Positions 12,027 through 41,757 of a DNA stretch of 47,079 bases are shown piece after piece. How positions within the stretch are numbered: position 1 is the first letter of the stretch; the number at the start of each line of letters is the position of its first letter. The notes under the pieces were generated by a model, which had not been told where the DNA came from, searched no databases, and saw only the letters and a list, made by a program, of their open reading frames with translations. Both the position numbers and the translations under genes were made by a program. Source of the stretch: Colwellia sp. (GTDB lineage: Bacteria; Pseudomonadota; Gammaproteobacteria; Enterobacterales; Alteromonadaceae); NCBI GenBank assembly GCA_029938115.1, contig JAPYOP010000036.1:1-47079 (forward strand). Reading direction: 5' to 3'.

Positions 12027-12518
12027 ATGAATATTATCAAACCGGTGAAAGCTATCGCTTCAATTTCAGCGTTATGCGCTGTTATGGCTCTTTCAAGTAT
12101 TTCTAGCGTCAATGCACTAGGCTATGGTGTTGCATCAGACTCACCACAACATCATCAAAAAAGAGGAAAGCATAGTAAACACATGATGAAGCGAATGATT
12201 AAAGAACTTTCGCTATCAGAGCAACAACAAGTACAGATTAAGGCAATAAGTACGCAAGCTAAAGCACAACATGAAACGTTACGTGAGGCGATGAAAAAAT
12301 TCAAAGGAGAAGAAAAAACGCTTCTCCAAGCTCAGGCATTTGATGAACAAGCTTATACGTCTTTGCATGCGGCTTATCAGCCAATTCATATGCAAATAGC
12401 ATTAACTCGAGCAAAAACTAAGCATGAGATATTTAATGTTTTAACGACAGAGCAACAAGAAAAGTGGTTAGCGCTAATGGAGAAGCGTAAAGAAAAATTT
12501 AGTAAAATGCGTGGTTAG
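12027..12518 (+). CDS. cpxP: CpxP/Spy-family periplasmic protein
   Basis: A 163-residue protein with an N-terminal signal peptide (hydrophobic stretch ISALCAVMALSSISSVNA) and a highly basic, Gln-rich helical mature part. The two LTxxQ-type motifs of the family appear as LSLSEQQQVQI near residue 65 and LTTEQQEKW near residue 145. CpxP/Spy proteins are cradle-shaped periplasmic chaperones; CpxP also inhibits CpxA. The ATG at 12027 follows TGGAG (12016-12020), whereas the TTG at 12015 overlaps that site and is rejected. Position opposite cpxR and the CpxR-like boxes upstream support the name, though Spy-like or zinc-responsive ZraP relatives cannot be excluded. The stop overlaps that of the convergent blaR1-like gene by four bases. 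Confidence 0.85.
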   Translation: MNIIKPVKAIASISALCAVMALSSISSVNALGYGVASDSPQHHQKRGKHSKHMMKRMIKELSLSEQQQVQIKAISTQAKAQHETLREAMKKFKGEEKTLLQAQAFDEQAYTSLHAAYQPIHMQIALTRAKTKHEIFNVLTTEQQEKWLALMEKRKEKFSKMRG

Positions 12519-14515
12519 CTTTGTAGGCTAAAAGCAAATACTTTAGACATTTGGCTTTCTACTGGTTGATCATCAACTTTAGCTGGTAGAAAACGCCATT
12601 TCTTAATGGCTGAACGTATAGAGCTTTTGAAATAATTAATTCTGTTTTGGCGTGTAAATTTAATATCTTTGATTTGACCGTCAACATCAATAGTAAAATT
12701 AACTTTTACTTCAATTTCAATCCCTTTACGTTTAGCAACGCTTGGATAAATTGGGTCAACAGATTTTAATTGTTCTGCACTTTTCCAGATAGGCAATGTA
12801 GATGTGATTTCTACTTCTTCAGAAAAACCAATGTTAGATAAGCTATTAGTTGATAAGTTAATATTTTTAGATTCAGCAACTTCGATATTTGTTAAAGGCA
12901 TTGTTTCAGCGTTTTTGTTTTCAAGTTGCCTGTAACTACTGCTCATTGTTACTTTGTTTAATAAATTATCTTGCTGTGTACTGTTCGTTTCTTCTATAGA
13001 CACTTCAACTATTGTCGCTTTTTGTGATGTAGCTAACAGTGCTATTTCTGCTTGATAAGGATTGCTTGAATTAGTTCGCTCAAATGCTTCTTCAACCATC
13101 ATTGAGTTAATAGTGATGCTACTGTTAATCATTTCTTTGGGCTGAATTGAAGTATTAGTAGATAGGCTGTCTAATTGTGCATTAAATTGTTTTGTTTCAC
13201 TTAAAATTGTTTGCTGCTTCGCTTGCGTCATTTGGCCTTGCTTGGCGATTTCAATATTAGATGTTTTCTTTACCACTGCTTTCTTTGTCGTTGAAAAAGT
13301 AGCTTGAGCTATAAAAGGTTGAGTTGTCTCATCTAATAAAGCTTGATTAGTTTGTCCGTCTTTTAGAGGCGTTAACAACTGTTGCGCAATTGAACTGTTT
13401 GGAAATTCATTACCATAAAGTTTATTACTTTTACCATGATTGGGTTGGTTCCATGGATTCTCATTATGCCAAATATCTAACAGCGGCATAGTTAGCATTT
13501 GCTTGCTTGAAAGTAACAACACCGAAAAAATAATGGTGGCGCTAGCAAACCATTTACTAATGTTATTTTTTGGGGCGCAGTGGTGATCAACTAAACGAAT
13601 AACACGTTGTTTTAAGTCTCCACCCGATGCCGCCATTGCCATATCAGGTATGGTGTGATGATGTGCTTTAGTACATAAAGACGCGGTGTCAGCTAATGTG
13701 TGGGCATAAGCAATAGCATCACCACAATGCTGTACAGCAATATCGTCACTACAATACTCACGTTCATTTCGCATTTGTTTTGAAACCCACAATACCGCCG
13801 GATGGAAGAACAGCAAAATTTCCACCAGTGTTTGCAAAAAGTTAACTAAATAATCATGACGCCTTATATGGGCGAGCTCATGTAAAATTAGCATTTCAAG
13901 CTGTGCACTATTTAGGCCGGTGATCATCGTTGCAGGTATTAACACTACGGGCTTAAGCCAACCTATTGCCATTGGCACTTCAACTTTCAGTGAAATAAGT
14001 AATCGCGGTGTTATGCTTAAATGGATTTGTTTAACTAATTCATTAAACCTAGCTTGCAGCTTATCGCTTGGCGTAAGAACGCGTTGCTGAGAAAGTTGAT
14101 TAACAGTAGAAACTTCAATTAATAACTTACCTGACAACAAAGTAATGGATGTTAGCCATAAAACAGAAATATAAGGCAGTAGTGCTGGGAAAACTTCAGT
14201 GAATTCTTTATAACTAAAGAGCGCGTCTGGCTGTTTTAACTCATGAATTAAATCATTCAACGCTATTGGGTTAATCATTGAGTTGACTGATGACAGTTCA
14301 GCACGATAAACAACAATAAAAGTAATGATAGGTAATAATAAGTTAACGAGCATAGCCAATGAAGACAGGGCATAACGCAGTTGAGGTCTATTATTATTGA
14401 AAACAAGTAATGCCGACTTTAATACAGCAGCCACTAAAAAACCTTGCCACAAAAAGTGCAATAAGGTCAGAGCTAAGCTGGTTAAAAATGGGCTATTAAT
14501 TAAGTTCTCTAGCAT
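12515..14515 (-). CDS. M56 (BlaR1-type) metalloprotease with TonB C-terminus
   Basis: A 666-residue protein. Transmembrane helices near residues 10-35, 45-70 and 110-130 precede the M56 peptidase domain with the zinc motif HELAH (His212, Glu213, His216) and the downstream NEREYCSDDIAV segment that supplies the third ligand. A further helix lies near residue 320. A long Ser/Thr/Asn-rich periplasmic linker (about 345-570) follows. The C-terminus (about 575-666: YPSVAKRKGIEIEVKVNFTI ... FKSSIRSAIKKWRF) is a TonB-like domain, not the penicillin-binding sensor of true BlaR1. In the Bla/Mec paradigm the protease triggers cleavage of the BlaI repressor encoded just upstream. The signal here is unknown and may come from an outer-membrane partner via TonB-like contact. 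Confidence 0.88.
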   Translation of the reverse strand: MLENLINSPFLTSLALTLLHFLWQGFLVAAVLKSALLVFNNNRPQLRYALSSLAMLVNLLLPIITFIVVYRAELSSVNSMINPIALNDLIHELKQPDALFSYKEFTEVFPALLPYISVLWLTSITLLSGKLLIEVSTVNQLSQQRVLTPSDKLQARFNELVKQIHLSITPRLLISLKVEVPMAIGWLKPVVLIPATMITGLNSAQLEMLILHELAHIRRHDYLVNFLQTLVEILLFFHPAVLWVSKQMRNEREYCSDDIAVQHCGDAIAYAHTLADTASLCTKAHHHTIPDMAMAASGGDLKQRVIRLVDHHCAPKNNISKWFASATIIFSVLLLSSKQMLTMPLLDIWHNENPWNQPNHGKSNKLYGNEFPNSSIAQQLLTPLKDGQTNQALLDETTQPFIAQATFSTTKKAVVKKTSNIEIAKQGQMTQAKQQTILSETKQFNAQLDSLSTNTSIQPKEMINSSITINSMMVEEAFERTNSSNPYQAEIALLATSQKATIVEVSIEETNSTQQDNLLNKVTMSSSYRQLENKNAETMPLTNIEVAESKNINLSTNSLSNIGFSEEVEITSTLPIWKSAEQLKSVDPIYPSVAKRKGIEIEVKVNFTIDVDGQIKDIKFTRQNRINYFKSSIRSAIKKWRFLPAKVDDQPVESQMSKVFAFSLQS

Positions 14516-14573
14516 TGTTTTTTAGTTATAAACCTTTTTATAATTATGGACTATAAACTCATTTCTCTATGGT

Positions 14574-14954
14574 TTATTTTTCTAGAGAGTTAAGTAACTG
14601 ACGAATATCATTAATTTCTTCGGCAGAAGTCGACTCATCAATTGCGCGCATAACTAACTTAGACGTTGAACCGCCAAATGCTTTGCTGATTAAATCTTTA
14701 ATTAAAGATGATTGGGTATGCATTTCGCTATTTGCTGCTGCATAAACATGAGCACGATTAGTTTCGTCACGAATAACTAGAGACTTTTCATGCATTATTT
14801 GTAATATTTTTAATACCGTTGTGTAACCCGTTTTTTGTGTTGCACTAACGATTTCGTGTATTTGTCTAACGGTAGCTGGACCCATTTGCCAAAGAACATT
14901 AAGTAAGGTTAACTCTGCTTCTGTTGGCTTTACTGCTGATTTGTCACGTGCCAT
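14574..14954 (-). CDS. BlaI/MecI/CopY-family repressor
   Basis: A 126-residue protein, the typical length for the family. The N-terminal winged helix (TEAELTLLNVLWQMGPATVRQI ... GYTTVLKILQIMHEKSLVIRD) is highly characteristic. The C-terminal helices (LIKDLISKAFGGSTSKLVMRAI) form the dimerisation and cleavage region. BlaI proteins bind palindromic operators as dimers and are inactivated through the partner M56 protease, which is encoded 58 bases downstream on the same strand. AGGA lies eight bases before the ATG. A perfect 7-base-arm palindrome upstream (14998-15017) may be its autoregulatory operator. Targets beyond its own operon are not visible here, and no beta-lactamase is adjacent. Confidence 0.92.
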   Translation of the reverse strand: MARDKSAVKPTEAELTLLNVLWQMGPATVRQIHEIVSATQKTGYTTVLKILQIMHEKSLVIRDETNRAHVYAAANSEMHTQSSLIKDLISKAFGGSTSKLVMRAIDESTSAEEINDIRQLLNSLEK

Positions 14955-17192: not shown

Positions 17193-17738
17193 ATGACGTG
17201 TAGCGATACCAATTTAATTTGGCTTGATTTAGAGATGACAGGATTAGAGCCAAAAATTGATGTAGTGCTAGAAATTGCTACCATCATTACGGACCTTCAG
17301 CTAAATATATTAGCTGAAGGTCCCGTTTTTGCTATTAGTCAGTCAGATGACACTTTAGATAACATGAGTGATTGGTGTATTGAGCATCATGGAAAATCGG
17401 GTTTAACACAACGTTGTCGAGATAGCGTTGTTAGTTTGGCTGAAGCAACAATCCAAACGATAGCATTTGTTCAGCAATATGTTCCTCAGGGAAAATCCCC
17501 AATGTGTGGTAATAGCATTGGTCAAGACAGACGTTTTATTAACAAATATATGCCTGACTTTGAAGATTATTTCCATTATCGCAACCTAGATGTAAGCACG
17601 GTAAAAGAACTTGCTCGTCGGTGGAAGCCTGAAATATTAGATAAAGTTGTCAAAACAGGTGCACATTTAGCTTTGGATGATATTCGAGAATCTATCGCTG
17701 AATTAAAAGTTTATCAAGCGCACTTTTTTAAAATATAA
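17193..17738 (+). CDS. orn: Oligoribonuclease
   Basis: A 181-residue DEDDh 3'-5' exonuclease that degrades di- to short oligoribonucleotides and, in many bacteria, pGpG from c-di-GMP breakdown. Motif Exo [10 protein letters not shown] has Asp12 and Glu14. Exo II lies in [10 protein letters not shown], and Exo III with its His and Asp in [15 protein letters not shown]. Full length is conserved. A weak AAGGGATAA site precedes the ATG. It is divergent from rsgA. In enteric bacteria the next gene is queG after tRNA-Gly genes; here a long accessory insertion intervenes. Confidence 0.97.
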
Positions 17739-17949: not shown

Positions 17950-18435
17950 ATGGCAAATCGATTTAGCTCCTTCGTTAATAAAGTAAATAAAGCGCCGCAG
18001 TTTATGCAGTCTTTTTTACTAACAACATTATTCACTTCTAAGGTTAAATTTGCAGGAACGACAGGGGTGAAAATTAAGAAGATTACTCACCAAGAAACAA
18101 TATTGTTTCTAAAAAATAAAAAATCCGTACAAAATCATATTGGTGGTATTCATGCGGTTGCTGCCGCGGTGTTGGCTGAGTCAACTACGGGCATTGTCTT
18201 TGGCATGAATGTTCCTGATAGTAGATTGCCTTTATTAAAATCAATGAAGATCAACTACATACGCCGAATGCAAGGAAACTTAAAAGCTGTTGCTAACTTG
18301 ACGTCAGCGCAAATAAAGGTGATTGAGCAACAAGATAAAGGTGATGTTATTGTGCCGGTAATCATTACTGATGAATCAGGACAGCAGCCTATAGAATGTG
18401 AGATGGAATGGGCATGGGTTAGTAAAAAGCGTTAA
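17950..18435 (+). CDS. DUF4442 hotdog-fold protein
   Basis: A 161-residue protein of the DUF4442 family, which adopts the hotdog fold of thioesterases. The typical helix-containing segment HIGGIHAVAAAVLAESTTGI (residues about 63-82) is visible, followed by the strand block MKINYIRRMQGNLKAVANL. The HIGG/HAxA region is where related thioesterases place active-site residues, but catalysis has not been established for DUF4442. AAGG stands before the ATG. It is the first gene of the accessory stretch between orn and queG. Function unknown; acyl-CoA or acyl-thioester hydrolysis is the obvious guess. Confidence 0.8.
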   Translation: MANRFSSFVNKVNKAPQFMQSFLLTTLFTSKVKFAGTTGVKIKKITHQETILFLKNKKSVQNHIGGIHAVAAAVLAESTTGIVFGMNVPDSRLPLLKSMKINYIRRMQGNLKAVANLTSAQIKVIEQQDKGDVIVPVIITDESGQQPIECEMEWAWVSKKR

Positions 18436-18507: not shown

Positions 18508-21500
18508 ATGAGCGATATTGATGAGCCTGTTGAACAGTCTGAAAATGAAGCAGTACTAACTCAACCTGAACAGCAAATTAAATTAAAACCATTATACCGG
18601 TTATTTACCTCTAAATTATTGACATTATTGTTAACGATAGTGGTGATGTTAGGGCTACTCATTGTTTTATTTTACCAAAGTAACGCTCAAAACCAGTCAT
18701 TAGTAAAGAACCAATTAACCCCATTAACCCAACAAGTTAAGAGGATTGAAGCTTTACAAAAGGCGGATGAGCTTGTTAATAATTTATTGATTGCAGCGAA
18801 TGCTGAAAACTATGTTTCATTACATGCCAAATTAATCGTTATTGATCGGCAGTTGTTGCAATGGAGTAGCTCTAACGAGCAACTATTTCAACAATGGTTA
18901 AATAAGCACAAATCATCTGAAGATATTGTCTCTCGTATTCAAGACAGCCATGCACGTAACCAGCAATTAAAGCAAAGTAGCATTATTCAGCTACAACTCA
19001 TGCTATTTTCAATGGCGCCTATCATCGATGAAAAATTAGCGAATCAAAAAACACTACATAAAAATCTACAGGCGGCTCAAGCCCGCAGCAAAGTAAGCTT
19101 TAGCCGAGCAAATTCTTATATAGTGTCAGCTCAATACTTGAATAATTTACAGAAACTTCAATCATTGTTAGCTGAAATATTAGTAAGTTTTGAACAGTTG
19201 ACTATGTATACGCCCATTGCTGATTTTGAACTATTACGTTTGAATGTGGAGCAAGTGTTTATTCAGAATAAAGTGCTAAAAGACGGTAGCAATACCAATG
19301 CCATGATTGATGTTAATCAGCAAATAGATACTTTTGAACAAATTGTGTTAACCGAGCAGAGAGCCTTGGCAAAATGGCAAGGTTACATCCGCTTGGCTCA
19401 AGATTACCATACGAACTTAAAAGAGCAGCAACGAGCAGTAAATCAGTTGTTGCTTGTACCTTATGAGGCTAAGCAAGCAAGTCAGGTAGGTGTTATTAAA
19501 GTTGTGCTAATCAAACTTAATATTCAATTGTCGAATAAAAACATTACTGTTCTTTTAGTACTGGTTATTGTTTTATCGTTACTATTCTTCTGTTATTTGT
19601 TATGGCGATTGCGCGAACAAATTAAGCTGTCTGCGCAGGAAGGTGTTGAAATAATTCAGAACAGTTTGCAAAAGAAAGATGGAAATGTTGTTGCCAATTG
19701 TGCTGAAACTCAAGCAATAATGGCACAGCTACAAAAAATTGCTAAGCCAGAGCATAGTGAACAAGAATTTCAGGCTATTGCTGAGCAATATCAATCAAGC
19801 TTACAATTTATTGAGCAGAAAGAGCAAGAGCTCGAAAGAATAGAAAAATGCAATGAACAACAGCAAATAGACGCTAAAGATCAAATCACCAATGAATTAC
19901 AGCGTTATAAGCACTTGGAAATAGCGACACTACCAATAATACAACAGCAACAGTCTGTTGCCTTGAGTAGTTCTCTTAGTGAAAGTAAGAATGTTTTAAA
20001 TGAGAACAACAATAGCAGTGTTTCAACAAAGTTAGCTTTGTTATACCAACAGTTATTACAGTTCCATTTGACGCTTGAAGTGCAATTAGAACAGTCAGTA
20101 TTGAATCTTAATGATATTAATTTAGTTGATGAAATACATGCTATTTTATTTAATAAGCAAGCACAGCAGCAATACAATGATAACCAGTTGTTTGTGAGTT
20201 GTGACGAGCAGCTGCTTTCACAAGCCAAAATAGATTTTCGTTTATTTCAACAATTAATAAAACTATTTATTGATATATCACTAGACAATTGTCAGGCGAG
20301 CCAATTACTTTTACAGGTGCAGTTACAAGATAAAAGTGCAGGGCAGCAGCTAGTGCGCTTTGTTGCTAACGTAAAAACACAATCATCAGACGCTTTGCCT
20401 AGTTTAATTAGTCAACTACTTGAGCCACAAGCAACAAAGCATTCAGCATCACCATTAATTGCGGTGTTTAATATATTACTTGCCAAGCAGCACGGAAAAA
20501 ATATTGCCGCTCAACTTTTTGATGATGGCTTTCAAGTCAGTTTTGAGTTACCGCTAGCTGTTGCAGCAACTACTGCTAGTAAAGATAAGTCGGTCTTAAA
20601 AAACACTAAAGTCATGTTGTTATCAAACAGTTCTTTCTTAGCAGAGTTGATAGAAAACAGTGTGCAATCAGCGAAAGGAAAGTTTGAAAAACTCGCCCGA
20701 ATTGACAGTTTTCAACAACAAGTTAACGGGAAACAACTTAAACGGCATAAGCTTGATTTGTTAGTTATTGATAATGATATGGCGCTAAATCATCTTGATT
20801 TAATAACGCAGCAAATAAATGAACTACCTCAATCATTACAACCTAAGTTGATGGTATTACAAAGCTCGACCCTTAGTTATGATGTTTTTGGCTTATATTC
20901 TCAAGCGGAACACGTTTTATGTGAAGGTAACTTGCTACTTAATATTGAAGAATTATTAGCAAGTGATAAGTCAAATAATCAATTATACCCTTGTGAGCAG
21001 TTTACAAAAGGTAGCTACATTGATAATGAATTACCTTTGCTTTTAGCTATGCGTTCTCCAGAGCACTCTCGAAACTTGCAACGTTTATTAACTTGGCTTG
21101 GTTTTCAGGTGCAAGTTGTCGCCCATGAAGCGGCGCAAAATGCGCTTTGGCAAACGGGGCAGTTTAGTCTGCTCATTAGTGAATTTGCACAAGCAGCCTT
21201 ACTTGAAATGACAAGCACACCATTGATTGATGTTGGTGTGTTTAGTTTATCTGATGTCTTATCCAAAGATGAAAACAGCACTTACTTTGATAGTTGGCAT
21301 ATTGGTCAATTATCGAAAGAGGCTACATTAGCTGAATTAATTACTGCGCTGAAACCATGGTTAAAATTGGCACAACACATTGAAAACGCGCAAAACAACA
21401 GTGCGATTAATGAAAACGCATTAGAGGTGACAGAAGAGCATTTAGATGAATCAGAAGAATTTGTTATTACTGAAGTGGCGAGTGTATTAATTGAAAGTAG

Positions 21501-21858
21501 CGAAAACGGCAGTAATGATAAAGCCGTATTTAATTTTGCTCAATACTTACAACACCAAGGCACAGTGGAGCTAGCCCTATTTATGTTGGACGACTACACC
21601 CAAGATAATCACCAGCAACTTGATGCACTAATTGAAGCGATAAAAGCCAAAAATATAGAAGAAGCGCAATTGGCTATCTCAGCATTAGCAATCAATGCAA
21701 AAATACTCTCAGCCCAAGAGTTGCAAGTTTTGTGTGCTAAATGGTCTAAATTATTAACCGGCAGTGAAATCCCAAGCAGCTTAAAGAAAATAAATGCTTT
21801 ACTTAAGGAGACTCGAATAGCACTTAATGAAATTGATGTCTATGCGGAAGCTATTTAA
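18508..21858 (+). CDS. Degenerate hybrid histidine-kinase-like membrane protein
   Basis: A 1116-residue protein with the layout of a TorS/BarA-type hybrid kinase but without its chemistry. Transmembrane helices at about 34-54 and 346-366 flank a helical periplasmic domain; a coiled coil (about 415-460) follows. The region at about 500-685 aligns with a HATPase end (DALPSLISQLLEPQ ... VSFELPL), but DxGxG is replaced by NVKTQ and GTGLGL by ASPLIA. Receiver 1 (about 695-815) lacks the acidic pair (LLSNSS) and the Lys, keeping only Asp755 in LLVIDND. Receiver 2 (about 842-950) has no acidic pair and Glu892 in place of the phosphoacceptor Asp. The C-terminal Hpt-like helices (about 1008-1105) have Ser1058 where the HxLKG His belongs. 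No clear H-box is seen. It is a probable pseudokinase or scaffold. Which signal it senses is unknown. Confidence 0.75.
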   Translation: MSDIDEPVEQSENEAVLTQPEQQIKLKPLYRLFTSKLLTLLLTIVVMLGLLIVLFYQSNAQNQSLVKNQLTPLTQQVKRIEALQKADELVNNLLIAANAENYVSLHAKLIVIDRQLLQWSSSNEQLFQQWLNKHKSSEDIVSRIQDSHARNQQLKQSSIIQLQLMLFSMAPIIDEKLANQKTLHKNLQAAQARSKVSFSRANSYIVSAQYLNNLQKLQSLLAEILVSFEQLTMYTPIADFELLRLNVEQVFIQNKVLKDGSNTNAMIDVNQQIDTFEQIVLTEQRALAKWQGYIRLAQDYHTNLKEQQRAVNQLLLVPYEAKQASQVGVIKVVLIKLNIQLSNKNITVLLVLVIVLSLLFFCYLLWRLREQIKLSAQEGVEIIQNSLQKKDGNVVANCAETQAIMAQLQKIAKPEHSEQEFQAIAEQYQSSLQFIEQKEQELERIEKCNEQQQIDAKDQITNELQRYKHLEIATLPIIQQQQSVALSSSLSESKNVLNENNNSSVSTKLALLYQQLLQFHLTLEVQLEQSVLNLNDINLVDEIHAILFNKQAQQQYNDNQLFVSCDEQLLSQAKIDFRLFQQLIKLFIDISLDNCQASQLLLQVQLQDKSAGQQLVRFVANVKTQSSDALPSLISQLLEPQATKHSASPLIAVFNILLAKQHGKNIAAQLFDDGFQVSFELPLAVAATTASKDKSVLKNTKVMLLSNSSFLAELIENSVQSAKGKFEKLARIDSFQQQVNGKQLKRHKLDLLVIDNDMALNHLDLITQQINELPQSLQPKLMVLQSSTLSYDVFGLYSQAEHVLCEGNLLLNIEELLASDKSNNQLYPCEQFTKGSYIDNELPLLLAMRSPEHSRNLQRLLTWLGFQVQVVAHEAAQNALWQTGQFSLLISEFAQAALLEMTSTPLIDVGVFSLSDVLSKDENSTYFDSWHIGQLSKEATLAELITALKPWLKLAQHIENAQNNSAINENALEVTEEHLDESEEFVITEVASVLIESSENGSNDKAVFNFAQYLQHQGTVELALFMLDDYTQDNHQQLDALIEAIKAKNIEEAQLAISALAINAKILSAQELQVLCAKWSKLLTGSEIPSSLKKINALLKETRIALNEIDVYAEAI

Positions 21859-22025: not shown

Positions 22026-22430
22026 ATGAATTATAGACAACATGTTAGAGAGTTAACGTTGGTTGACTCTGCTATTGATTCATTGCATTCAGCCTATCGC
22101 TGGCTGTTTTGGTTAGTGATTATTTGGGGTGGAATTATAGGATATTCTTATTTTCAAATTGAAGCGGCGAATGAAGCAGTTTGGATGGAAAGTAATCTGA
22201 ATATCACTTCAACATTATCATTAGCCGCCATAGTTTACATCTTTTTAAGCTTTAGTTTTTTTGCATGGTCAATAAAAAGGAACATTAGAAGATCAGGACA
22301 AAAAAACTTCTTCAAAGGCTTAGGAAAAATACTTTTAAGTATATTCGCCGCCCCTTTTGTGATAATGCCGTTAGCTGGGGTTTATTACGCTTTTTATTTT
22401 CTCATTAACACCTACATTATTGCATTATAA
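22026..22430 (+). CDS. Small three-TM membrane protein of caspase operon
   Basis: A 134-residue protein I do not recognise. A soluble N-terminal helix (about 1-24) precedes transmembrane segments at about 27-45, 64-84 and 105-130; a basic cytoplasmic loop (KRNIRRSGQKNFFKG) sits between the second and third. GAGGAA lies upstream of the ATG at normal spacing. Its stop is nine bases before the ATG of the next gene, which itself overlaps the caspase gene, so the three are one translational unit. Its conserved neighbours suggest a membrane anchor or pore-forming partner of the caspase protein; that is inference only. Confidence 0.75.
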   Translation: MNYRQHVRELTLVDSAIDSLHSAYRWLFWLVIIWGGIIGYSYFQIEAANEAVWMESNLNITSTLSLAAIVYIFLSFSFFAWSIKRNIRRSGQKNFFKGLGKILLSIFAAPFVIMPLAGVYYAFYFLINTYIIAL

Positions 22431-22439
22431 GGATTGATC

Positions 22440-23330
22440 ATGTCTAAATTATTAAAAATTGATGGTAATGTATGGAAACCGGTGACATGCCAACATTGTG
22501 ATGAGCAATTTGTTTACAAGATGAATCGCAATGCAAAAGTTGAAATTGCTGACTTAGAAGATAAAGCACAAAAAAAAACGGCGACAGAGCAAGCAAAGTT
22601 AATTTTGAAACATCGTTTTAAGGAAGAGTTTGACGAAGTGCCTTGCCCAGGTTGTGGTCGTTTTCAACAAAACATGGTGTGGGCTAAACGCTATCGAGTG
22701 TTACCGCTGGCCGAAGGCTTTGCTTATGCCACCACTCTGATGAGTTTTATCTTTATCGCCTTTGCCATCTTGCTCAGTTTTGCTGAAGCACCAGACGATG
22801 AATTCATGACAATGGTGGCCACCATTGCAAAAATATTAGTACCATTGATTCCTACCATGATCTCGGTAATTTTATTCTGCTATATTGTCAGAATATTAAA
22901 AAACCCTAACCGTAAACCACAAACAGAAACAGCCGCACAATTGGTAAAAGACGGGGTGATTTTAGATAAAAACACCTTTAAAGCGGCAGCATCTGACAAA
23001 AGTAGTAATACAGGAATGATTTTAGGTGCGAGTGCTTTATTCGCCTTTAGTGCTTTTCAATTACATTCTACATTTGCAGACGATAGCACTGAAGAAAATT
23101 TAGCCAACAATACTGAAGATACCCTAGCAGCAGATGCACTAGCAGATGATATGATAGCATCTGATGAGGGCGCGGAAGCTACAGAAGTGTCAGAGATTGC
23201 AGATGTCGATGCAAACATGGATATGGCAATGGATGATTTAGATGCTCAAATAGATAGTTCATTCGACGAGATGGACATTGAAATTTCAGACAGTAGTGAT
23301 TTAATTGATGACATTCTCGACAACACTTAA
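22440..23330 (+). CDS. Zinc-ribbon membrane protein with acidic tail
   Basis: A 296-residue protein without a recognised family. The N-terminal part has a split zinc ribbon: CQHC near residue 16 and CPGC near residue 66, separated by a charged helix. Two transmembrane helices follow (about 87-107 and 120-145), then a cytoplasmic stretch, then a third hydrophobic segment (TGMILGASALFAFSAFQ, about 194-212). The last 80 residues are strongly acidic (repeated Asp/Glu with Ala and Met), predicted disordered. AAGG precedes the ATG at 22440; the TTG at 22434 is less likely. Its end overlaps the caspase gene by 23 bases. It may recruit or inhibit the caspase partner; unproven. Confidence 0.75.
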   Translation: MSKLLKIDGNVWKPVTCQHCDEQFVYKMNRNAKVEIADLEDKAQKKTATEQAKLILKHRFKEEFDEVPCPGCGRFQQNMVWAKRYRVLPLAEGFAYATTLMSFIFIAFAILLSFAEAPDDEFMTMVATIAKILVPLIPTMISVILFCYIVRILKNPNRKPQTETAAQLVKDGVILDKNTFKAAASDKSSNTGMILGASALFAFSAFQLHSTFADDSTEENLANNTEDTLAADALADDMIASDEGAEATEVSEIADVDANMDMAMDDLDAQIDSSFDEMDIEISDSSDLIDDILDNT

Positions 23331-24837
23331 GTCAAAAAAAAGCTGGATAGTAAAATTTTTAGGGCTGAGTAGTTTATTACTCAGCCTACAATTTTCTGTC
23401 AGTGCTTCTAACCGCCATGCCCTTGTTATTGGTAATGCCGATTATAAAATTGGACCATTAAAAAATCCCAGCAATGACGCCAATAGCATCTCAGCAAGTT
23501 TAGAGCGTTTAGGTTTTAAAGTTACAAAAATATTGAACAGCAATCGCAGATACATGCGAGAAGCAGTAAAGGATTTCGGAAAATCATTATCTTCTAATGA
23601 TGTTAGTTTATTCTTTTATGCGGGTCATGCCGTGCAAGTTGAACATACAAATTACCTTATTCCGCTTGGTGCAAATATTGAGAGTGAGACTGATTTCGAA
23701 TATGAAGCATTGCCACTTGATTATGTATTTGACACGTTAAAAGCAGCCAAAAACCGACAAAACATCGTTATCCTAGATGCCTGTCGTAATAACCCTTTTA
23801 AAGCACATTCAAGAGGTTTAGTGCGAGGTCTTGCTCAAACTGACGGACCCAAAGGTACACTGATCGCTTATGCAACGGCCCCTGGCGCCGTTGCGCTTGA
23901 TGGCATAGCTAATAATGGCGTATTTACTGGAGCTTTATTGGAACATATTGATACTGAAGGTATTTCACTTGAACAAGTTTTCAAACGTACCTTAGCAAAA
24001 GTTAATCAAGAAACGCGAGGCAAGCAAGTACCATGGATTTCATCCTCTTTTTATCAAGATTTTTACTTTAATGGCAAACAAGCGCTACCTCAGGCTTATG
24101 TAGCTCAAAAGAGCAAATACGTTCAAAATTCAATGGCGCAATTGACAATGCGTTCCAACATTTTCCAAGACCAAGTCACCATTGACGATAATAAATATGG
24201 TTCAACCCCTTTAACTATATCGCTTAAACCAGGTAATCATACCGTTAAAATTGAACGAACGGGTTTTACCACTTGGCAACAAGAAATCAATCTCAGTACT
24301 GGCAATCAAATTAAGTGGGCGCAACTCGCTAAAAAAGTAAAAGCGGTTAGTTATAAAAATGGTGACCGCTTTATCGGTACCTTGCTTAATAAGAAAAAAG
24401 ACGGAAAAGGCATATATATATACAGTAACAAAAGTAAGTTTGCTGGCGATAAATTTTATGGTGAATATAAAAACGGCCTAAAGCATGGATTTGGTAGTTA
24501 TATTCACGGTAATGGAGAGCAATATACGGGGCAATACTTACAAGGAAAACGTACAGGAAAAGGCACTATTACCTTTAATAACGGCAGCCAATATTATGGT
24601 GATTTTATCGCAGGAAAACAAACAGGTAGTGGCTCGATCATTTATTCAGATCAAAGCTCTTATAGTGGAAAATTTTTAAACGGTCATCGTCATGGTCATG
24701 GTATTTATTATTTTGCTGATGGTCATTCTTTTGAAGGAAGTTTCAACCATGGCAAAAGAAACGGAAAAGGTATTTGTACTGACATTAATGGTAATGAGAG
24801 TGAATGTAGTTATTTAGCAGATATAAGCGTTCAATGA
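23308..24837 (+). CDS. Caspase-PEGA-MORN protein (peptidase C14)
   Basis: A 509-residue exported protein. Signal sequence about 15-34 (FLGLSSLLLSLQFSVSAS), then a caspase-like p20 domain starting RHALVIGNADY (residue 36). The catalytic dyad is complete: His107 in FFYAGH and Cys159 in DACRNNPF. A PEGA-type beta domain (about 282-335, STPLTISLKPGNHTVKIERTGF) follows, then five or six MORN repeats (about 360-490; G-x-Y/F-x-G-x-x-x-x-G-K/H-x-x-G pattern). Bacterial C14 proteins (orthocaspases) usually cut after Arg or Lys. MORN repeats commonly bind membranes or partners. The start overlaps the zinc-ribbon gene by 23 bases, implying translational coupling. Whether the protein is periplasmic and what it cleaves are unknown. 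Confidence 0.88.
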   Translation: MTFSTTLKSKKSWIVKFLGLSSLLLSLQFSVSASNRHALVIGNADYKIGPLKNPSNDANSISASLERLGFKVTKILNSNRRYMREAVKDFGKSLSSNDVSLFFYAGHAVQVEHTNYLIPLGANIESETDFEYEALPLDYVFDTLKAAKNRQNIVILDACRNNPFKAHSRGLVRGLAQTDGPKGTLIAYATAPGAVALDGIANNGVFTGALLEHIDTEGISLEQVFKRTLAKVNQETRGKQVPWISSSFYQDFYFNGKQALPQAYVAQKSKYVQNSMAQLTMRSNIFQDQVTIDDNKYGSTPLTISLKPGNHTVKIERTGFTTWQQEINLSTGNQIKWAQLAKKVKAVSYKNGDRFIGTLLNKKKDGKGIYIYSNKSKFAGDKFYGEYKNGLKHGFGSYIHGNGEQYTGQYLQGKRTGKGTITFNNGSQYYGDFIAGKQTGSGSIIYSDQSSYSGKFLNGHRHGHGIYYFADGHSFEGSFNHGKRNGKGICTDINGNESECSYLADISVQ

Positions 24838-24981: not shown

Positions 24982-26202
24982 CTAAGCATCTCTAGGTAAG
25001 CCTTTTTCTACCGAACGAATCAATCGTGCATTGAGCCTAGCACTTGAACTATTCCCTTCGCTATTACTTGTATTAGTTAGGCTAGAAACATGTTTCAATG
25101 TTTGTTGTTCAATAGCCCAATTTATATGTTCAGCAACTAATGGAGATGCACTCGTTAATTTTTCTTCTAACGCTGTGATGATACTTGCATCAAAAGGAGC
25201 GTTCCCTAGGGCAACGGCAATATTACGTTGCCAACTTTGAAAACCTATTCTGCGAATCGGTGAGCCTGCTAGGTTTGATAGAAAATAGCTCTCATTCCAT
25301 GCAAAAAGTGCTAATAATGTTATTTCATCAAGTTGATGTCGAGCTTGAAAATCATCTTCTAAACTAAGTTTGGCGTATTTATTCCACGGGCAAATGAGTT
25401 GACAGTCATCACAGCCATAAATTCTATTACCCATTAATGGTCTTAGCTCAAGTGGGATAGGATCTGGAGATTCAATGGTAAAATAAGAAATACAGCGACG
25501 AGCATCAACCACATAAGGTGCAACTATCGCTTTAGTGGGGCATATTTTAATGCAAGCCACACAGCTGCCACAGTCGTTTTTGGATGTTGCTTCATCTATG
25601 GGTTCAATTGAAGTGACAGGCAAAGGGATATCTATTAGTAACTCACCCAGAAAAAACCAAGAGCCAGCTTCCTTGTTTAGTAATAAACTGTGTTTTCCAA
25701 CCCAACCTAAACCTGCCTTTTCAGCTAAAGGTCGTTCTAGAATTGGCGCAGAATCTACAAAAGGGCGAAAATTAAAATCTTCACCTGCTAATTTATCAAA
25801 ATACGTAGTGATTTTTTTACCAAGTTGTTGCAAGCGCTTACGCATCAACTTGTGATAATCTCGACCTAGGGCGTAACGACTAATATAGGCGTGATCTTTG
25901 GCTTTTAAAATTTTTGCACATTTCGCTTGAGTGGGTAAATAGTCTAAGCGAACACTAATAGCTCGAATAGTGCCGGCTTCTAATTCTGCTGGGCGTGCGC
26001 GCATTAAACCATGGCGAGCCATGTAATCCATATTCCCGTGATAATTATTAGCTAACCATTGTTCCAAGGCTTGTTCATGCTTAGATAAGTCAATATCGGT
26101 AATTCCAAGCTGAGAAAAGCCTAATTCTTTACCCCAACACTTGATTTTTTCAACCAATTCGGGATAGTTAATAGCGTGAATGTTAGCTGCAGTACTGGTC
26201 AT
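24982..26202 (-). CDS. queG: Epoxyqueuosine reductase
   Basis: About 406 residues; catalyses the last step of queuosine synthesis in tRNA, reducing epoxyqueuosine with cobalamin and two [4Fe-4S] clusters. The cluster ligands are visible as CGSCVACIKICPTKAI and CDDCQLICPWN. The family region YHGNMDYMARH, the cobalamin-pocket region and the C-terminal HEAT-like helices are present. The frame is open further upstream (to 26289), but that would overlap the divergent nnr gene; the ATG at 26202 begins just before the conserved N-terminus and is preferred, although its ribosome binding site is poor. It opens the conserved queG-nnr-tsaE block. Confidence 0.95.
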   Translation of the reverse strand: MTSTAANIHAINYPELVEKIKCWGKELGFSQLGITDIDLSKHEQALEQWLANNYHGNMDYMARHGLMRARPAELEAGTIRAISVRLDYLPTQAKCAKILKAKDHAYISRYALGRDYHKLMRKRLQQLGKKITTYFDKLAGEDFNFRPFVDSAPILERPLAEKAGLGWVGKHSLLLNKEAGSWFFLGELLIDIPLPVTSIEPIDEATSKNDCGSCVACIKICPTKAIVAPYVVDARRCISYFTIESPDPIPLELRPLMGNRIYGCDDCQLICPWNKYAKLSLEDDFQARHQLDEITLLALFAWNESYFLSNLAGSPIRRIGFQSWQRNIAVALGNAPFDASIITALEEKLTSASPLVAEHINWAIEQQTLKHVSSLTNTSNSEGNSSSARLNARLIRSVEKGLPRDA

Positions 26203-26231
26203 TATTAACTGAAATAAGGTGTGAATTACTG

Positions 26232-27809
26232 ATGAGTTTATCACAACAACCAAACGCAAAACATAACGGGCATTGTGCATATAGCGCAAAACAAGTTTTA
26301 GTCAACGAAGCACTTGCTGCTAAAAGTCAGCAATTGGCTATGTATACACTTATGGAGCGTGCAGGGACTGCTGCTTTTAATACACTCTGTCAGCGCTGGT
26401 CGAAGAAAATTCATATTCTGGTGCTTTGCGGCAAAGGTAATAATGGCGGTGACGGTTTTGTGCTTGCCCGTTTGGCGCATGTAAAGGGCATACCGGTTAG
26501 CGTCTTAATTAGTTGTGAAATTACTGATATTAAAGGTGATGCTTTAACGGCTTATCACGCAATGCTTGATGCCGGCGTTAGTGATGTTTTTACTGATAAA
26601 TTAGCCAAGCGCATTAATCAATTTATCGGTGAGGTGATTGTTGATGCACTCTTTGGTATTGGTTTTTATGGTGCTTTAGCGAAGCCACTGCAAGAAATAG
26701 TAACCGCAATAAATAAGCATGATGCCAACGTGTTGAGTATAGATATCCCTTCAGGATTATGTGCAACAACCGGTTTTGTTCGTGATGAACACGCTGTTAT
26801 TGCTGATGTCACGGTTACTTTTATTGTCTACAAGCAAGGTTTGTTAACAGGGCAAGCCGCTAACTTTGTTGGTGATTTGGTTTTGGCTGATATTGGCTTG
26901 GGAAATACTTTTAAGCAACTGGTCGCTAGCGATGTTACCTACCAAACAAGGTATCCATTATTAAATAATGCTAAGCCATTAAAAAAGCGACTGAAGACCT
27001 GCCATAAAGGTAATGTCGGGCAAGTATTATCTATTGGTGGTGGTAAAGGCATGCCCGGAGCCATTCGCTTAGCAAGTGAAGCGGCGTTACGATGTGGCGC
27101 TGCTTTGGTAGCCGTGAGTTGTCATCCTGACAATCAAATTTTTGTTGTTAACGGCAGACCTGAATTAATGCTAGCAGCTAGTGACGCTAAGCAACTGGCT
27201 AGCTCAGCAGTAATAAACAAAGCTAAAGTGATCTTACTTGGGCCAGGGTTAGGCCAAACCGATTGGTCAAAGGCGCTTTTTGATTTGGCTATTGCGTCTA
27301 TGGTCAATTCAAATTCGGCTAGTGCTCATGATGAAAGAGATGAAGATAAATTATTAGTACTTGATGCCGATGGTTTAACTTTGTTATCGCAAACCAAACA
27401 TTTTTGTTCCCGTTGGGTTTTAACGCCACATCCAAAAGAAGCCGCGAGTTTATTGGGCTGCGATGTCGCCACTATAGAAGCTGGTCGCTTTAGTGCGGTA
27501 CGTAATATTGCCAAAAAATATGGCGGCATTTGCATTTTAAAAGGCGCAGGCAGTTTGATATCTGATGGAAAGCACGTTGTCATTAATAGCACGGGCAATG
27601 CTGGCATGGCTGTCGGCGGTATGGGGGACGTACTTGCGGGCATTGTTGCGGCGTTAACTTTACAGGCGAGTGACTATTTTACGGCTACCTGCTTAGCTGT
27701 CTATATTCATGGCGCTGCAGGTGATATTATTGCTAACAAGTATGGAGAACTAGGTATGTTAGCGAGTGATTTATTTGTACCTTTGCAGCACTTGGTTAAC
27801 CAAGAATAA
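26232..27809 (+). CDS. nnr: Bifunctional NAD(P)H-hydrate repair enzyme
   Basis: A 525-residue fusion that repairs damaged NAD(P)HX. The N-terminal half (about 1-225) is the NAD(P)HX epimerase, with MERAGTAAFN and the nucleotide motif GKGNNGGDGFVLARL. The C-terminal half is the ADP-dependent dehydratase of ribokinase-like fold, with GGGKGMPGAIRLASEAALR, LTPHPKEAA and NSTGNAGMAVGGMGDVLAG. Both domains look intact. The start codon lies 29 bases from the divergent queG start. Eighteen bases separate its stop from tsaE, matching the classical yjeF-yjeE order. Confidence 0.95.
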   Translation: MSLSQQPNAKHNGHCAYSAKQVLVNEALAAKSQQLAMYTLMERAGTAAFNTLCQRWSKKIHILVLCGKGNNGGDGFVLARLAHVKGIPVSVLISCEITDIKGDALTAYHAMLDAGVSDVFTDKLAKRINQFIGEVIVDALFGIGFYGALAKPLQEIVTAINKHDANVLSIDIPSGLCATTGFVRDEHAVIADVTVTFIVYKQGLLTGQAANFVGDLVLADIGLGNTFKQLVASDVTYQTRYPLLNNAKPLKKRLKTCHKGNVGQVLSIGGGKGMPGAIRLASEAALRCGAALVAVSCHPDNQIFVVNGRPELMLAASDAKQLASSAVINKAKVILLGPGLGQTDWSKALFDLAIASMVNSNSASAHDERDEDKLLVLDADGLTLLSQTKHFCSRWVLTPHPKEAASLLGCDVATIEAGRFSAVRNIAKKYGGICILKGAGSLISDGKHVVINSTGNAGMAVGGMGDVLAGIVAALTLQASDYFTATCLAVYIHGAAGDIIANKYGELGMLASDLFVPLQHLVNQE

Positions 27810-38385: not shown

Positions 38386-41300
38386 TTAATAGGGTATAGA
38401 AACACTAAAAGAAACACCTTTAAGTTCGTTATCATCTATTTTAATACTACCACCGAGTACTTGCGTTACTAAATTATAGACAAGGTGCATGCCTAGTCCT
38501 GAATTACCAGCGCCACGTTTTGTGGTCTCAAATGGATCAAAAATAATCTCTTTATATTCAGTACTTATACCGACACCGTTGTCCATATAATTAATAATGT
38601 ACGTATCATCAGTTTGAAATACTTTAATTGAAATAGTGCCCTTATCTATATTTTTAAAGCCATGTATAACTGAATTTAAAAGCAGGTTTGATATTACTTG
38701 TTTTAATACATCAGGGTAGCTGAGCATTTCTATGTTTTTATTACAATCAATTTTAATTTGGCATTCTTTATCCCATAAGTTTGACTTGAAAGAACAAACT
38801 ACTTCATCAAGAAGTAGAGCTAAATTGATTGTTTTTTTAATTTCTGTTTCTGGTTTTTTTGCGACTTGTTTAAATTTTTCAATTAAATTTGCAACACGGT
38901 TTAGGTTGTTCCTAATTAGTCCTGTTAAGTCTTCCCCTTCATCTAGAAAGGTCTTCATCTGACTTTTTGTGACATGTTGTCGTTCAAAACCATCAGCCAA
39001 AATTCGTATTCTGTCTTGCAATACAGACGAAGCAGTAATGCTCGTACCTATCGGTGTATTAATTTCGTGAGCAACACCTGCGACCATTTGCCCTAAAGAT
39101 GCCAGTTTTTCTTTTCTTACTAACTCAAGTTTTGAGTGCTCTAATTGTTCTATCACTTGCTCTAATTCATTATTAGATTTATTTAATGATCTATTGGATT
39201 GATTTAGCTCTACAGTTCTATTTTCAACCGCAATCTTCAATAGTTGTTCTTGTAACTTGTATGTTTTGACTCTCCATCGTAACCACAGATGTATAAACAT
39301 AAAAAAGCACAAAACTAATAATATTTGTATCCACAAAATTCTCCACCAAGGTGACATGATTTGTATAGAAAGTGTCGGATACTCAGTACTCCATATATTG
39401 TAGCTATTTAAGCCTTTGACACTAAATTGATATAGACCCGGATCTAAATTAGTAAATGTGGCTACCTGTAATTCCGATGGCGGACGCCATTCGTCAATAA
39501 GACCGCTTAACTTGTAACTATATAGGTTTTTTTCAGGTTCTAGATAATCTAAAGTTACAAATTCTATTTCTATTCGTTTTGTATTGTACGGAAGTTTTAG
39601 CACCTCACTTTTATTGCTCCTGTTAAAAGAGATTCTTTCGTCATCTACCAAAAGGTTCGTAATGAGTGTTTTAGGTGCGTAAGTAGAGCGCTCCATTTTT
39701 GCTAGTATAATTTTACTTAAGCCCTCACTGCCACCAAAAAAAATTGTATTGTTAATGCCTGGGGCAACATTTTTAGGGTAAAAGGAATTACTATTGAAAA
39801 TATCTCTACCACTGTAACTAGTAAATGAATCTTCACTTGACTTGTATTGCGATACTCCACTACGGGTACTTACCCATAAGTCGCCAAAACCATCTTCAAC
39901 CATGCTCTTAATATTGTTATCAATTAAACCATCTTTAACATTGTAATGCTGAATTTCGCCTGAAGCCATGTTGAGTCTATCAAGCCCTAATGGAGTGCCA
40001 AACCACATGTTTTTGTCTTGGGTTTGATAGATGTCAGTGATGATATTATCACTTAAACTAAACTTTAAATCGTCTTGTTTTTTTATGTGTAAAAAACTTT
40101 TAGTTATCGGGTCATATCGACTTACACCTCCTGTATTGGTGCCCACCCAAATACGTTCGTTGCTGTCTTCATATAGTTTGGTAATATTGTTTCCATTAAG
40201 CGAAGTGGGATCATTTTCATCAAATTGATACCATGAGCGCTGTCCAGATAAGTCATATAATATTACGCCTTGGTGTGTCATACCAATCCATATGTGATCG
40301 TGTGAGTCTACTAAAAGCTCATCAACAACGTTATTTGTTCCTCCTTCAATTACATCATTTCTAGCTATCAGTTTTGTACGACTCTTATCTAAAAAATATA
40401 GGCCTGAATAAGTACCTATCCATAAATTTCCTTTCGAATCCTCACCAATAGCACCAATGTTTGCATCCCATTCACTACCATCTATTTCTACTTTGGTTAT
40501 TGAGTCTGTTATCTGATCATAGCGTATAAGGCCATTAGGTGTTCCTATCCAAAGAATTTGATTTGAATCTGAAAATATTGTGTTTGCTCGATTGAATTTT
40601 TTGCTTGAGGTTCCTGATTTATAACTATTAATGTGTTCGAATCTGTTTGGCATCATATCGACTTTTATCAAGCCATTATATCGTGTTGCTATCCACAATA
40701 ATCCTGCGTGGTCAAACATAATATCTCGTATATCATTTTGTGCTAATAGTTGATATTTTCCCGTTTTGTTCCACAGGGAAAATTGCTTATCCTCAGGTTT
40801 ATATAAGTAAAGGCCGTTTAAAGTACCAATATATATATGACCTTTACTATCTTCCCGAAGACGGGAAATAATTGACGTGCCTGAATTATTAGTTAACTCA
40901 ATGCGTGTAAATTCATTGGTGTTGATGTCAAACTCACCAAAGCCACTTTGTGTTCCTACCCAAAGCCTACCACTACTATCGCTTAATAAACTCCTTACAA
41001 GACTATTATCTAATGAATTGTTTTTTTCATTATTTGCAAAAAAAGTAACGAAAGTGCCACTATTTATGTCTAGTTTGTTTAAGCCTTTTGATGTCGCTAC
41101 CCATATAGAGCCATTTCGGTCTTCTGCAATATTCCATACTCTATTGTGACTGATAGATCCTTTAATGTTTGGATCATGTTTATAACGAACAAAGTTGGCA
41201 GTAGACTCTTTAAAAATCGCTAAACCTCCTCCATTTGTGCCAATCCAAATATTGCCAGAACTGTCTTCAAAAAGGGTTTGAATACGATTGTTTGGAAGAG

Positions 41301-41757
41301 AGTCATTACTCGATGGGATGTTAACGAAATGATGTATCAAATTCATATTGATATCATACAAGCTAAGACCTTCGCCCCAGCTACCAACCCAAAGTCTCCT
41401 TTTGCTGTCGATCAAAATATTGCCAGCGCTAGAAGTATTTAAATGATTAGTATTATCATTTTGTTTGGAATATACCCTAAAATGATAGCCGTCATATCGA
41501 ATGAGATTTGAAGGCGTACCTAACCAAATAAATCCATCATGATCAGCAGCCATGCTAAATATAGTTGTTTCTGGTAAGCCATCACTAACTGTGATTTTGT
41601 CAATGGAGGAAAAGTATGTGCTTATACGAGCTGTTTGTTTCTGGCTTTCAGAGGCTTTAGTTTTTGTATTGAAAAACACATTATCACTAGCGTAAGCAAA
41701 TGGCAGTAAGCTAAATAAAATTATAAATGAATAACCTAAATAAATAGCATTTTTCAT
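38386..41757 (-). CDS. Reg_prop/Y_Y_Y sensor histidine kinase
   Basis: A 1123-residue sensor. The signal peptide (about 1-23) precedes a periplasmic part containing 14 Reg_prop repeats, each with a W-I/V-G-T-like core (examples FIWLGTPSNLIRYDG, NIWIGTNGGGLAIF, RIWVGTNTGGVSRYD), enough for two seven-bladed propellers. The Y_Y_Y domain (about 695-775), one transmembrane helix (about 785-805), a coiled coil, HisKA with VAHEINTPIG (His897), and HATPase with YMDNGVGIS and NSGLGMHL complete it. In hybrid two-component systems of this type (Bacteroidetes) a receiver and AraC domain follow; here neither is present, and no regulator gene is adjacent. GGAG precedes the ATG. Probable polysaccharide or metabolite sensing is inference. 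Confidence 0.93.
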   Translation of the reverse strand: MKNAIYLGYSFIILFSLLPFAYASDNVFFNTKTKASESQKQTARISTYFSSIDKITVSDGLPETTIFSMAADHDGFIWLGTPSNLIRYDGYHFRVYSKQNDNTNHLNTSSAGNILIDSKRRLWVGSWGEGLSLYDINMNLIHHFVNIPSSNDSLPNNRIQTLFEDSSGNIWIGTNGGGLAIFKESTANFVRYKHDPNIKGSISHNRVWNIAEDRNGSIWVATSKGLNKLDINSGTFVTFFANNEKNNSLDNSLVRSLLSDSSGRLWVGTQSGFGEFDINTNEFTRIELTNNSGTSIISRLREDSKGHIYIGTLNGLYLYKPEDKQFSLWNKTGKYQLLAQNDIRDIMFDHAGLLWIATRYNGLIKVDMMPNRFEHINSYKSGTSSKKFNRANTIFSDSNQILWIGTPNGLIRYDQITDSITKVEIDGSEWDANIGAIGEDSKGNLWIGTYSGLYFLDKSRTKLIARNDVIEGGTNNVVDELLVDSHDHIWIGMTHQGVILYDLSGQRSWYQFDENDPTSLNGNNITKLYEDSNERIWVGTNTGGVSRYDPITKSFLHIKKQDDLKFSLSDNIITDIYQTQDKNMWFGTPLGLDRLNMASGEIQHYNVKDGLIDNNIKSMVEDGFGDLWVSTRSGVSQYKSSEDSFTSYSGRDIFNSNSFYPKNVAPGINNTIFFGGSEGLSKIILAKMERSTYAPKTLITNLLVDDERISFNRSNKSEVLKLPYNTKRIEIEFVTLDYLEPEKNLYSYKLSGLIDEWRPPSELQVATFTNLDPGLYQFSVKGLNSYNIWSTEYPTLSIQIMSPWWRILWIQILLVLCFFMFIHLWLRWRVKTYKLQEQLLKIAVENRTVELNQSNRSLNKSNNELEQVIEQLEHSKLELVRKEKLASLGQMVAGVAHEINTPIGTSITASSVLQDRIRILADGFERQHVTKSQMKTFLDEGEDLTGLIRNNLNRVANLIEKFKQVAKKPETEIKKTINLALLLDEVVCSFKSNLWDKECQIKIDCNKNIEMLSYPDVLKQVISNLLLNSVIHGFKNIDKGTISIKVFQTDDTYIINYMDNGVGISTEYKEIIFDPFETTKRGAGNSGLGMHLVYNLVTQVLGGSIKIDDNELKGVSFSVSIPY

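Follow-up and report, generated by a model that had tools for sequence, protein, structure and literature searches.

The window analyzed here comprises 47,079 nucleotides of Colwellia sp. (positions 1 to 47,079 of contig JAPYOP010000036.1, GenBank assembly GCA_029938115.1) and carries, between orn and queG, a long gene for a putative hybrid histidine kinase that appears to have lost its catalytic chemistry, here called the pseudo-kinase. A sequence-only reading of this DNA had described the protein as a stripped kinase of the TorS/BarA type, and its basic observations were reproduced: the frame of 1116 codons (18508..21858, forward strand) reads from its ATG start without an internal stop, and the motifs NVKTQ and ASPLIA as well as Asp755, Glu892 and Ser1058 are found at the positions it had given (Table 1). 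Within the predicted periplasmic sensor region of the family alignment, W290 is invariant and N151 and K289 are nearly so; in the C-terminal Hpt-like domain, Y1013, A1023 and M1026 are invariant and Q1017, G1018, E1021, L1022 and Y1030 nearly invariant (profile A1, see below).

Table 1. Coordinates of the pseudo-kinase gene, its predicted parts and the flanking locus markers in the window.
Feature	Position	Strand	Remarks
Putative pseudo-hybrid histidine kinase gene, whole	18508..21858	+	1116 amino acids (aa), ATG start, no internal stop
Transmembrane helix 1	18613..18678	+	residues ~36-57; hydropathy, peak ~37-55
Periplasmic sensor region, predicted	18688..19542	+	residues 61-345
Transmembrane helix 2	19543..19611	+	residues ~346-368; hydropathy, peak ~346-364
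Cytoplasmic coil at the expected HAMP/DHp place	19624..20052	+	residues 373-515; no H-box; outside the local hhalign alignment
HATPase-like domain	20053..20577	+	residues 516-690; Ile590 at the N-box Asn column; no G1/G2 motifs
REC1-like domain	20587..21015	+	residues 694-836; Asp755 present, no acidic pair
Asp755 codon, REC1 phospho-site column	20770..20772	+	D in 2/37 members having a residue there
REC2-like domain	21019..21375	+	residues 838-956; Met848-Arg849 at the acidic-pair columns
Glu892 codon, REC2 phospho-site column	21181..21183	+	E 36, D 7, other 5 (n=48)
Linker	21376..21516	+	residues 957-1003; weak constraint by dN/dS
Hpt-like domain	21517..21855	+	residues 1004-1116
Ser1058 codon, column of the Hpt phospho-histidine	21679..21681	+	alignment register
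orn, upstream locus marker	17193..17738	+	
DUF4442 protein, upstream neighbor	17950..18435	+	
queG, downstream locus marker	24982..26289	-	

The core is homologous to hybrid histidine kinases

Searched on its own, the window protein matched nothing relevant in Pfam, NCBIfam (BarA and TorS models included) or PDB, a plasmid search was likewise unhelpful, and weak RXLR and SOR_SNZ matches were taken as noise. None of the 91 HATPase_c matches listed for the window's genome lies within the pseudo-kinase gene. The sequence-only reading thus picked up what tools working on one sequence do not detect.

Profile comparisons were based on an alignment of 48 members, drawn from 57 candidate loci plus the window. 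Dropped from it were two frameshifted orthologs (L018 and L039), a partial one (L022), one with a deleted core (L090) and a pseudogene (L098), and further L087-L089 (the same as L021, L020 and L019), L079 (identical to L025) and L035, which is complete. Profile A1 contains 43 of the 48 members, sub-profiles A6, A7, A8 and A10 contain 32, and A9 contains 25. As canonical kinases we used L001-L008 and nine of L109-L119, several of them cut at locus ends; L109 was excluded as a family member, and L115 was also left out.

Local hhalign analysis showed that the core of the family is homologous to hybrid kinases, with a score of 99.6% against nine canonical hybrid kinases (E 4.9e-25 over 559 columns, 48-member alignment) and 98.3% against eight kinases from the window's own genome, compared to at most 0.9% for ten decoys from unrelated neighbor families. 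Every part also outscored all decoys when compared separately (canonical set, own-genome set and best decoy, respectively): the HATPase-like part with 89.8, 75.9 and 0.6%, the REC1-like part with 96.8, 86.4 and 5.5%, the REC2-like part with 95.2, 39.4 and 1.7%, and the Hpt-like part, which is weak against the own-genome set, with 71.3, 1.1 and 0.4%. The hidden Markov model alignment is colinear with canonical kinases including L113 in the order HATPase-REC-REC-Hpt, and its register places Ser1058 on the Hpt His, Glu892 on the REC2 Asp and, via L113, Asp755 on the REC1 Asp.

Profile searches of PDB agree for two of the four parts. Among the 32 matches listed for the Hpt-like profile, the top eight are two CheA, four HPt proteins and two short chains (E 1.6e-4 to 0.021); the latter, named 'Sensor protein' (119 aa) and 'Histidine kinase' (116 aa), are taken as Hpt domains. 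In line with this, Pfam Hpt matched 7 of 43 members at E<=0.1 (best 1.9e-4), the next family only 4. The REC2 profile listed five sequences at E 0.017 to 0.14, of which two are CheY, two are short chains of histidine kinases and one is a response regulator; Pfam Response_reg matched 2 of 43 members. No natural receiver was among the PDB matches of the REC1 profile, and the HATPase-like profile retrieved no HATPase there with HMMER, so that these two assignments rest on hhalign and colinearity. Neither local hhalign nor the PDB profile search matched the sensor region to anything. Thus, of the TorS/BarA-like order proposed from the sequence, the HATPase, the two receivers and the Hpt are borne out by profile-profile comparison and the two transmembrane helices by hydropathy, whereas a HisKA/DHp helix pair is not recognizable, the local hhalign alignment beginning downstream of that region.

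The closest known architecture is that of the BarA/TorS-type hybrid kinases (NF008318, TIGR02956), which share HATPase-REC-REC-Hpt behind a membrane sensor. The best NCBIfam match among the canonical relatives is BarA for L110, L111, L113, L114 and L119 and TorS for L117, all below cut-offs. In contrast to these kinases, the pseudo-kinase has no recognizable HisKA, N-, G1- or G2-box and no acidic pair, and almost no phospho-sites.

Kinase motifs are lost and phospho-sites nearly lost across the family

Conservation analysis showed that the H-box, N-box, G1 and G2 motifs are each absent from all 48 members, whereas the canonical controls carry the H- and N-boxes and G2 in 17/17 and G1 in 16/17 cases. 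This supports the loss of catalytic chemistry that the sequence-only reading had proposed. Both window receivers lack the acidic pair, as had been proposed, with no such pair in REC1 and with Met848-Arg849 at the REC2 columns; Lys937, as read from hhalign, sits on the receiver Lys column of REC2, where 6 of 48 members have K.

The phospho-site columns differ in what has replaced the canonical residue. At the REC2 Asp column, Glu is the most common residue (36 members), followed by Asp (7) and by Q, M, G or N in the remaining five. The REC1 column holds Asp only in the window and in L012, another residue in 35 members and a gap in 11, so that the survival of Asp755, which the sequence-only reading had singled out, is limited to the window and a single relative. 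Eleven different residues occupy the Hpt His column, with His in 2/48 members (L060 and L064, both long) and in none of nine short members described below, which argues against phosphotransfer. At least one canonical-like residue among the five places checked is found in 14 of the 48 members, and a working set in none; orthologs with full catalytic residues, which would have spoken against the sequence-only reading, are likewise absent from the aligned members. In L073 and L092, D849 occurs together with D892, which looks like a remnant of an ancestor's working receiver.

The dead domains are under purifying selection but can be deleted

Ratios of nonsynonymous to synonymous substitution (dN/dS) were determined for ten pairs picked as close relatives; in the three pairs formed by the window, L010 and L011 the whole-gene dS exceeds 1.6, so that their ratios are approximate. 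Purifying selection acts on the dead HATPase-like domain, with dN/dS between 0.06 and 0.24 in all ten pairs, and the Hpt-like part has values of at most 0.19 in eight of them, the exceptions being 0.39 and 0.78 at dS of 0.21 and 0.05. As an internal comparison, the linker gave 0.35-0.96 in the nine computable pairs, indicating that the dead domains are kept up by selection where they are present. These ratios and the conserved locus agree with the proposed maintenance of the gene by selection.

Several lineages have nevertheless lost parts of the protein. REC1 is absent from a sub-clade of the window's genus (frames of 948-1020 aa) and was lost separately in L091. The nine short members (525-611 aa) all keep the sensor and the Hpt-like domain, with 0.86-1.01 and 0.92-1.0 of the columns, respectively, and hold only 0.00-0.11 of the REC1 and REC2 and 0.04-0.32 of the HATPase-like columns. 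The core is also deleted in G017 (L090). On the queG tree (see below), parsimony gives four changes for the core deletion, two of them forced by well-supported branches, and two changes for the loss of REC1, both forced. That the core has been deleted more than once in the family is new here. Since the short members have neither REC1 nor REC2, Asp755 and a phospho-mimicking Glu892 are not a mechanism shared by the family. A member of 884 aa (L150:6256-8910, G092) shows the reverse arrangement, with the dead core kept and the sensor region much reduced.

Broken copies were also found: in L018 and L039 (Colwellia maritima) a frameshift close to the Hpt-like region divides the ortholog into two frames, and in G005:C57 (L098) it is interrupted by several stops. 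The earlier argument that an intact frame implies selection therefore stands in outline, with the qualification that core parts are lost in several lineages, that G005 has a pseudogene and that one species is frameshifted.

Distribution and genomic context

Searched with the window protein, 37 of 61 genomes contained relatives, and these 37 all belong to the window's genus; at the family level relatives occur in 99/395 genomes of 17/52 genera. Profile searches added members in two more genera (G072 and G092), giving 19 of 52. In all, the profile matched 163 of 395 family genomes and 61 of 394 order genomes, and the weak matches include kinases without ortholog status; the six that were examined are canonical hybrid kinases. 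In the window's genome, the profile retrieved only the pseudo-kinase gene, and a contig search with the single sequence retrieved one locus, from Colwellia maritima, the protein of which has match values identical to those of G008 from the window's genus. Long open frames are present in nearly all members read. Identity to the relatives, taken from the best BLAST segment, is 22-62% (24-62% inside the genus).

In all 41 loci with the gene, queG is adjacent or a few open reading frames (ORFs) away, and orn or the DUF4442 gene lies on the opposite side in 34 of them (in L062 with five ORFs between). Nine additional members have one or more of orn, DUF4442 and queG nearby, and ten gene-less loci contain queG and no family member within the stretch fetched. 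The queG tree, a quick search with 20 open forks, covers 60 of 62 candidates, L146 and L149 holding no queG; all ten gene-less rows lie together on the same side of a branch marked 95*, consistent with a single gain. Because of the shared locus and the single-gain tree, the relatives are likely to be orthologs despite their low identity. No description of this family was among the open-licence PMC papers listed by our literature searches.

Three genes lie between the pseudo-kinase and queG in the window (22026-24837, forward strand). They encode a membrane protein of 134 aa, a 298-aa protein weakly matching a Zn-ribbon and a caspase-PEGA-MORN protein (PF00656, 6.9e-39), and none of the three has a matching ORF in the 41 loci. 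Elsewhere in the window, the reverse strand carries a BlaR1-like peptidase M56 fused to a TonB C-terminal domain beside a penicillinase-repressor family protein (12515-14954), and a kinase of 1123 aa with a two-component propeller (Reg_prop, Y_Y_Y), HisKA and HATPase_c (38386-41757).

A receiver-TPR protein neighbors the gene in other genera

In 11 of the 20 loci L059-L078 (L059, L060, L061, L063, L064, L072, L073, L074, L076, L077 and L078), a gene for a protein with a receiver and TPR (REC-TPR) lies between the pseudo-kinase gene and queG. The protein has 545-565 aa and, in the nine copies aligned, 60-86% identity to that of L059. Its phospho-Asp is replaced in all eleven copies, by Ser in eight and by Ala in three, with the acidic pair and the Lys retained. 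Three paralogs were aligned; the Asp is present in those of L165 and L167, and Gly takes its place in that of L168, which belongs to the window's genus. The window genome contains one relative, at 24% identity and elsewhere in the genome. As a general partner the REC-TPR protein was rejected, since it is found in 11 of those 20 loci and no ORF of that size lies at this place in L091-L096 or in the same-genus loci, as judged by ORF size only. No REC-TPR-sized ORF was seen in the short-form loci either, some of which are cut by contig ends or have no queG.

A rather speculative arrangement for the eleven loci would be a phosphate-free two-component pair, in which a dead kinase and a dead receiver would carry the signal from the membrane into the cytoplasm solely through docking of Hpt on REC. 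If true, this would be a case of relay architecture reused without chemistry, elsewhere reduced to a bare sensor and a pseudo-Hpt.

Discussion

Catalytic loss together with maintenance by selection supports the non-catalytic role that had been suggested for the pseudo-kinase, and we consider it very likely that it is a non-catalytic signaling protein. More specifically, and with less confidence, the sequence comparisons lead us to favor a pseudo-hybrid histidine kinase that descends from BarA/TorS-type kinases and is kept as an inner-membrane sensor signaling by protein-protein contact; in short, it probably signals by binding instead of by chemistry. The output is likely to run via the Hpt-like domain, because core-less members retain it along with the sensor, and not by phosphate, because the Hpt His column varies freely. 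A cue from the periplasm or the membrane would alter the sensor, the change would pass to the C-terminal Hpt-like helical bundle, and this bundle would dock on the receiver domain of a partner, blocking or holding it without phosphate exchange; the HATPase-like and REC-like parts could then act as dimerization, scaffold or tuning modules. Docking on a receiver is the simplest use of an Hpt fold, and as the output of this family we propose it tentatively.

There are precedents for such a mode of action. RcsD of enterobacteria is a membrane protein with a periplasmic loop, an inactive HATPase and a C-terminal Hpt, whose non-Hpt regions are needed for regulation (PMC7418988). RetS of Pseudomonas, a hybrid kinase whose HATPase is degenerate, acts on a second kinase (PMC5992135), DivL of Caulobacter, a pseudokinase inactive both as kinase and as phosphatase, binds a response regulator (PMC4211667), and the plant pseudo-HPt AHP6, which lacks its His, may compete for binding (PMC7402358). 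As these four proteins illustrate, dead parts of kinases or Hpt proteins can exert regulation through binding. The pseudo-kinase shares with RcsD its membrane anchoring, a predicted periplasmic loop, a dead HATPase and a C-terminal Hpt; unlike it, it has no Hpt His and has REC-like domains, whereas the Hpt of RcsD is functional and relays phosphate. RetS retains its H-box and a phosphate-accepting REC2 Asp, both of which are missing at the corresponding positions of the window protein. DivL has a Tyr for the His and carries PAS domains, and AHP6 is a plant protein with Asn for the His, in contrast to the bacterial, membrane-anchored pseudo-kinase. AHP6 is soluble, and DivL is not known to have a REC or Hpt. 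Receivers without the Asp made up 2.0% of those sampled, and Hpt domains without the His 0.9% (PMC12632262). Bacterial pseudo-receivers of this kind share with our family a REC fold without key residues; here, in contrast, the HATPase, both REC and the Hpt are degenerate together, and the window protein is below Pfam detection for all of them.

Several observations weigh against the favored view. Four of 48 coils contain a looser pattern, SH[ED], and with a His at the Hpt column in two members and D849 with D892 in two others, some lineages may retain part of the phospho-chemistry. In places the gene can be dispensed with, as the G005 pseudogene and the frameshifts of G008 and L039 show. The short members were found by profile match, so that Hpt-less forms may have escaped, although a core-keeping, sensor-poor member (L150) was found. 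The residues conserved in the Hpt-like domain may serve its structure or contact a partner that is not a receiver. AlphaFold2 models built from two and three sequences were too poor to help, with pLDDT of 41.5 and 37.5.

The strongest alternative, which we regard as less probable, is that the protein has a structural or envelope role, with an Hpt-like bundle that binds a partner other than a receiver and a kinase ancestry irrelevant to its present working. This would explain why the receivers and the HATPase-like part are dispensable in short members, why the sensor region matches nothing known, and why no two-component gene adjoins the pseudo-kinase in the window or in same-genus loci (judged by ORF sizes and matches); it explains less well the purifying selection on the retained HATPase-like and REC2-like parts and the receiver-TPR protein encoded by the next gene in the eleven loci of other genera. 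Slow decay of a dispensable paralog seems improbable. The broken copies, the core deletion in G017, the loss of REC1 in two lineages and an identity of 24-62% within the genus, as compared to 82-89% for orn and rsgA when L039 and L088-L090 of the genus are taken, are what decay would leave behind, but low dN/dS of the HATPase-like part in all ten pairs and of the Hpt-like part in eight, as well as the presence of the gene in 19 genera with long open frames nearly throughout, argue against it.

Two explanations that retain some receiver chemistry fare worse. A phosphate sink, working via Asp755 or, in some lineages, via a remaining D892 or Hpt His, is very improbable: neither window receiver has the acidic pair, D755 is confined to two of 37 members, and the nine short members have neither receivers nor the Hpt His, even if Asp755 in the window and L012, D892 in 7/48 members (with D849 in L073 and L092), the His of L060 and L064 and the working REC2 Asp beside a degenerate HATPase in RetS (PMC5992135) could be read in its favor. 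Least probable of all is that Glu892, suggested by the sequence-only reading as a phospho-mimic, locks REC2 in a phosphorylated-like state as the output, since Glu is the commonest residue at its column but is replaced in 12 of 48 members (D in 7, Q, M, G or N in 5), the metal-holding acidic pair is gone, and the gene persists in nine short members without REC2.

We return to the pseudo-hybrid kinase that would signal by contact. As a conserved family in which parts have been deleted naturally, it goes beyond what the sequence-only reading had claimed. The family joins the pseudo-kinases and pseudo-receivers already known as pseudo-two-component proteins; according to a 2025 perspective, the on/off switching of bacterial pseudo-receivers is still a mystery (PMC12632262). 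What distinguishes the present case is that the HATPase, both receivers and the Hpt have degenerated together in a single-locus family, in which natural deletions reveal the dispensable parts. It lends itself to a clean test of the question whether two-component folds can signal without phosphate, with short forms of 525-611 aa that are small enough for study.

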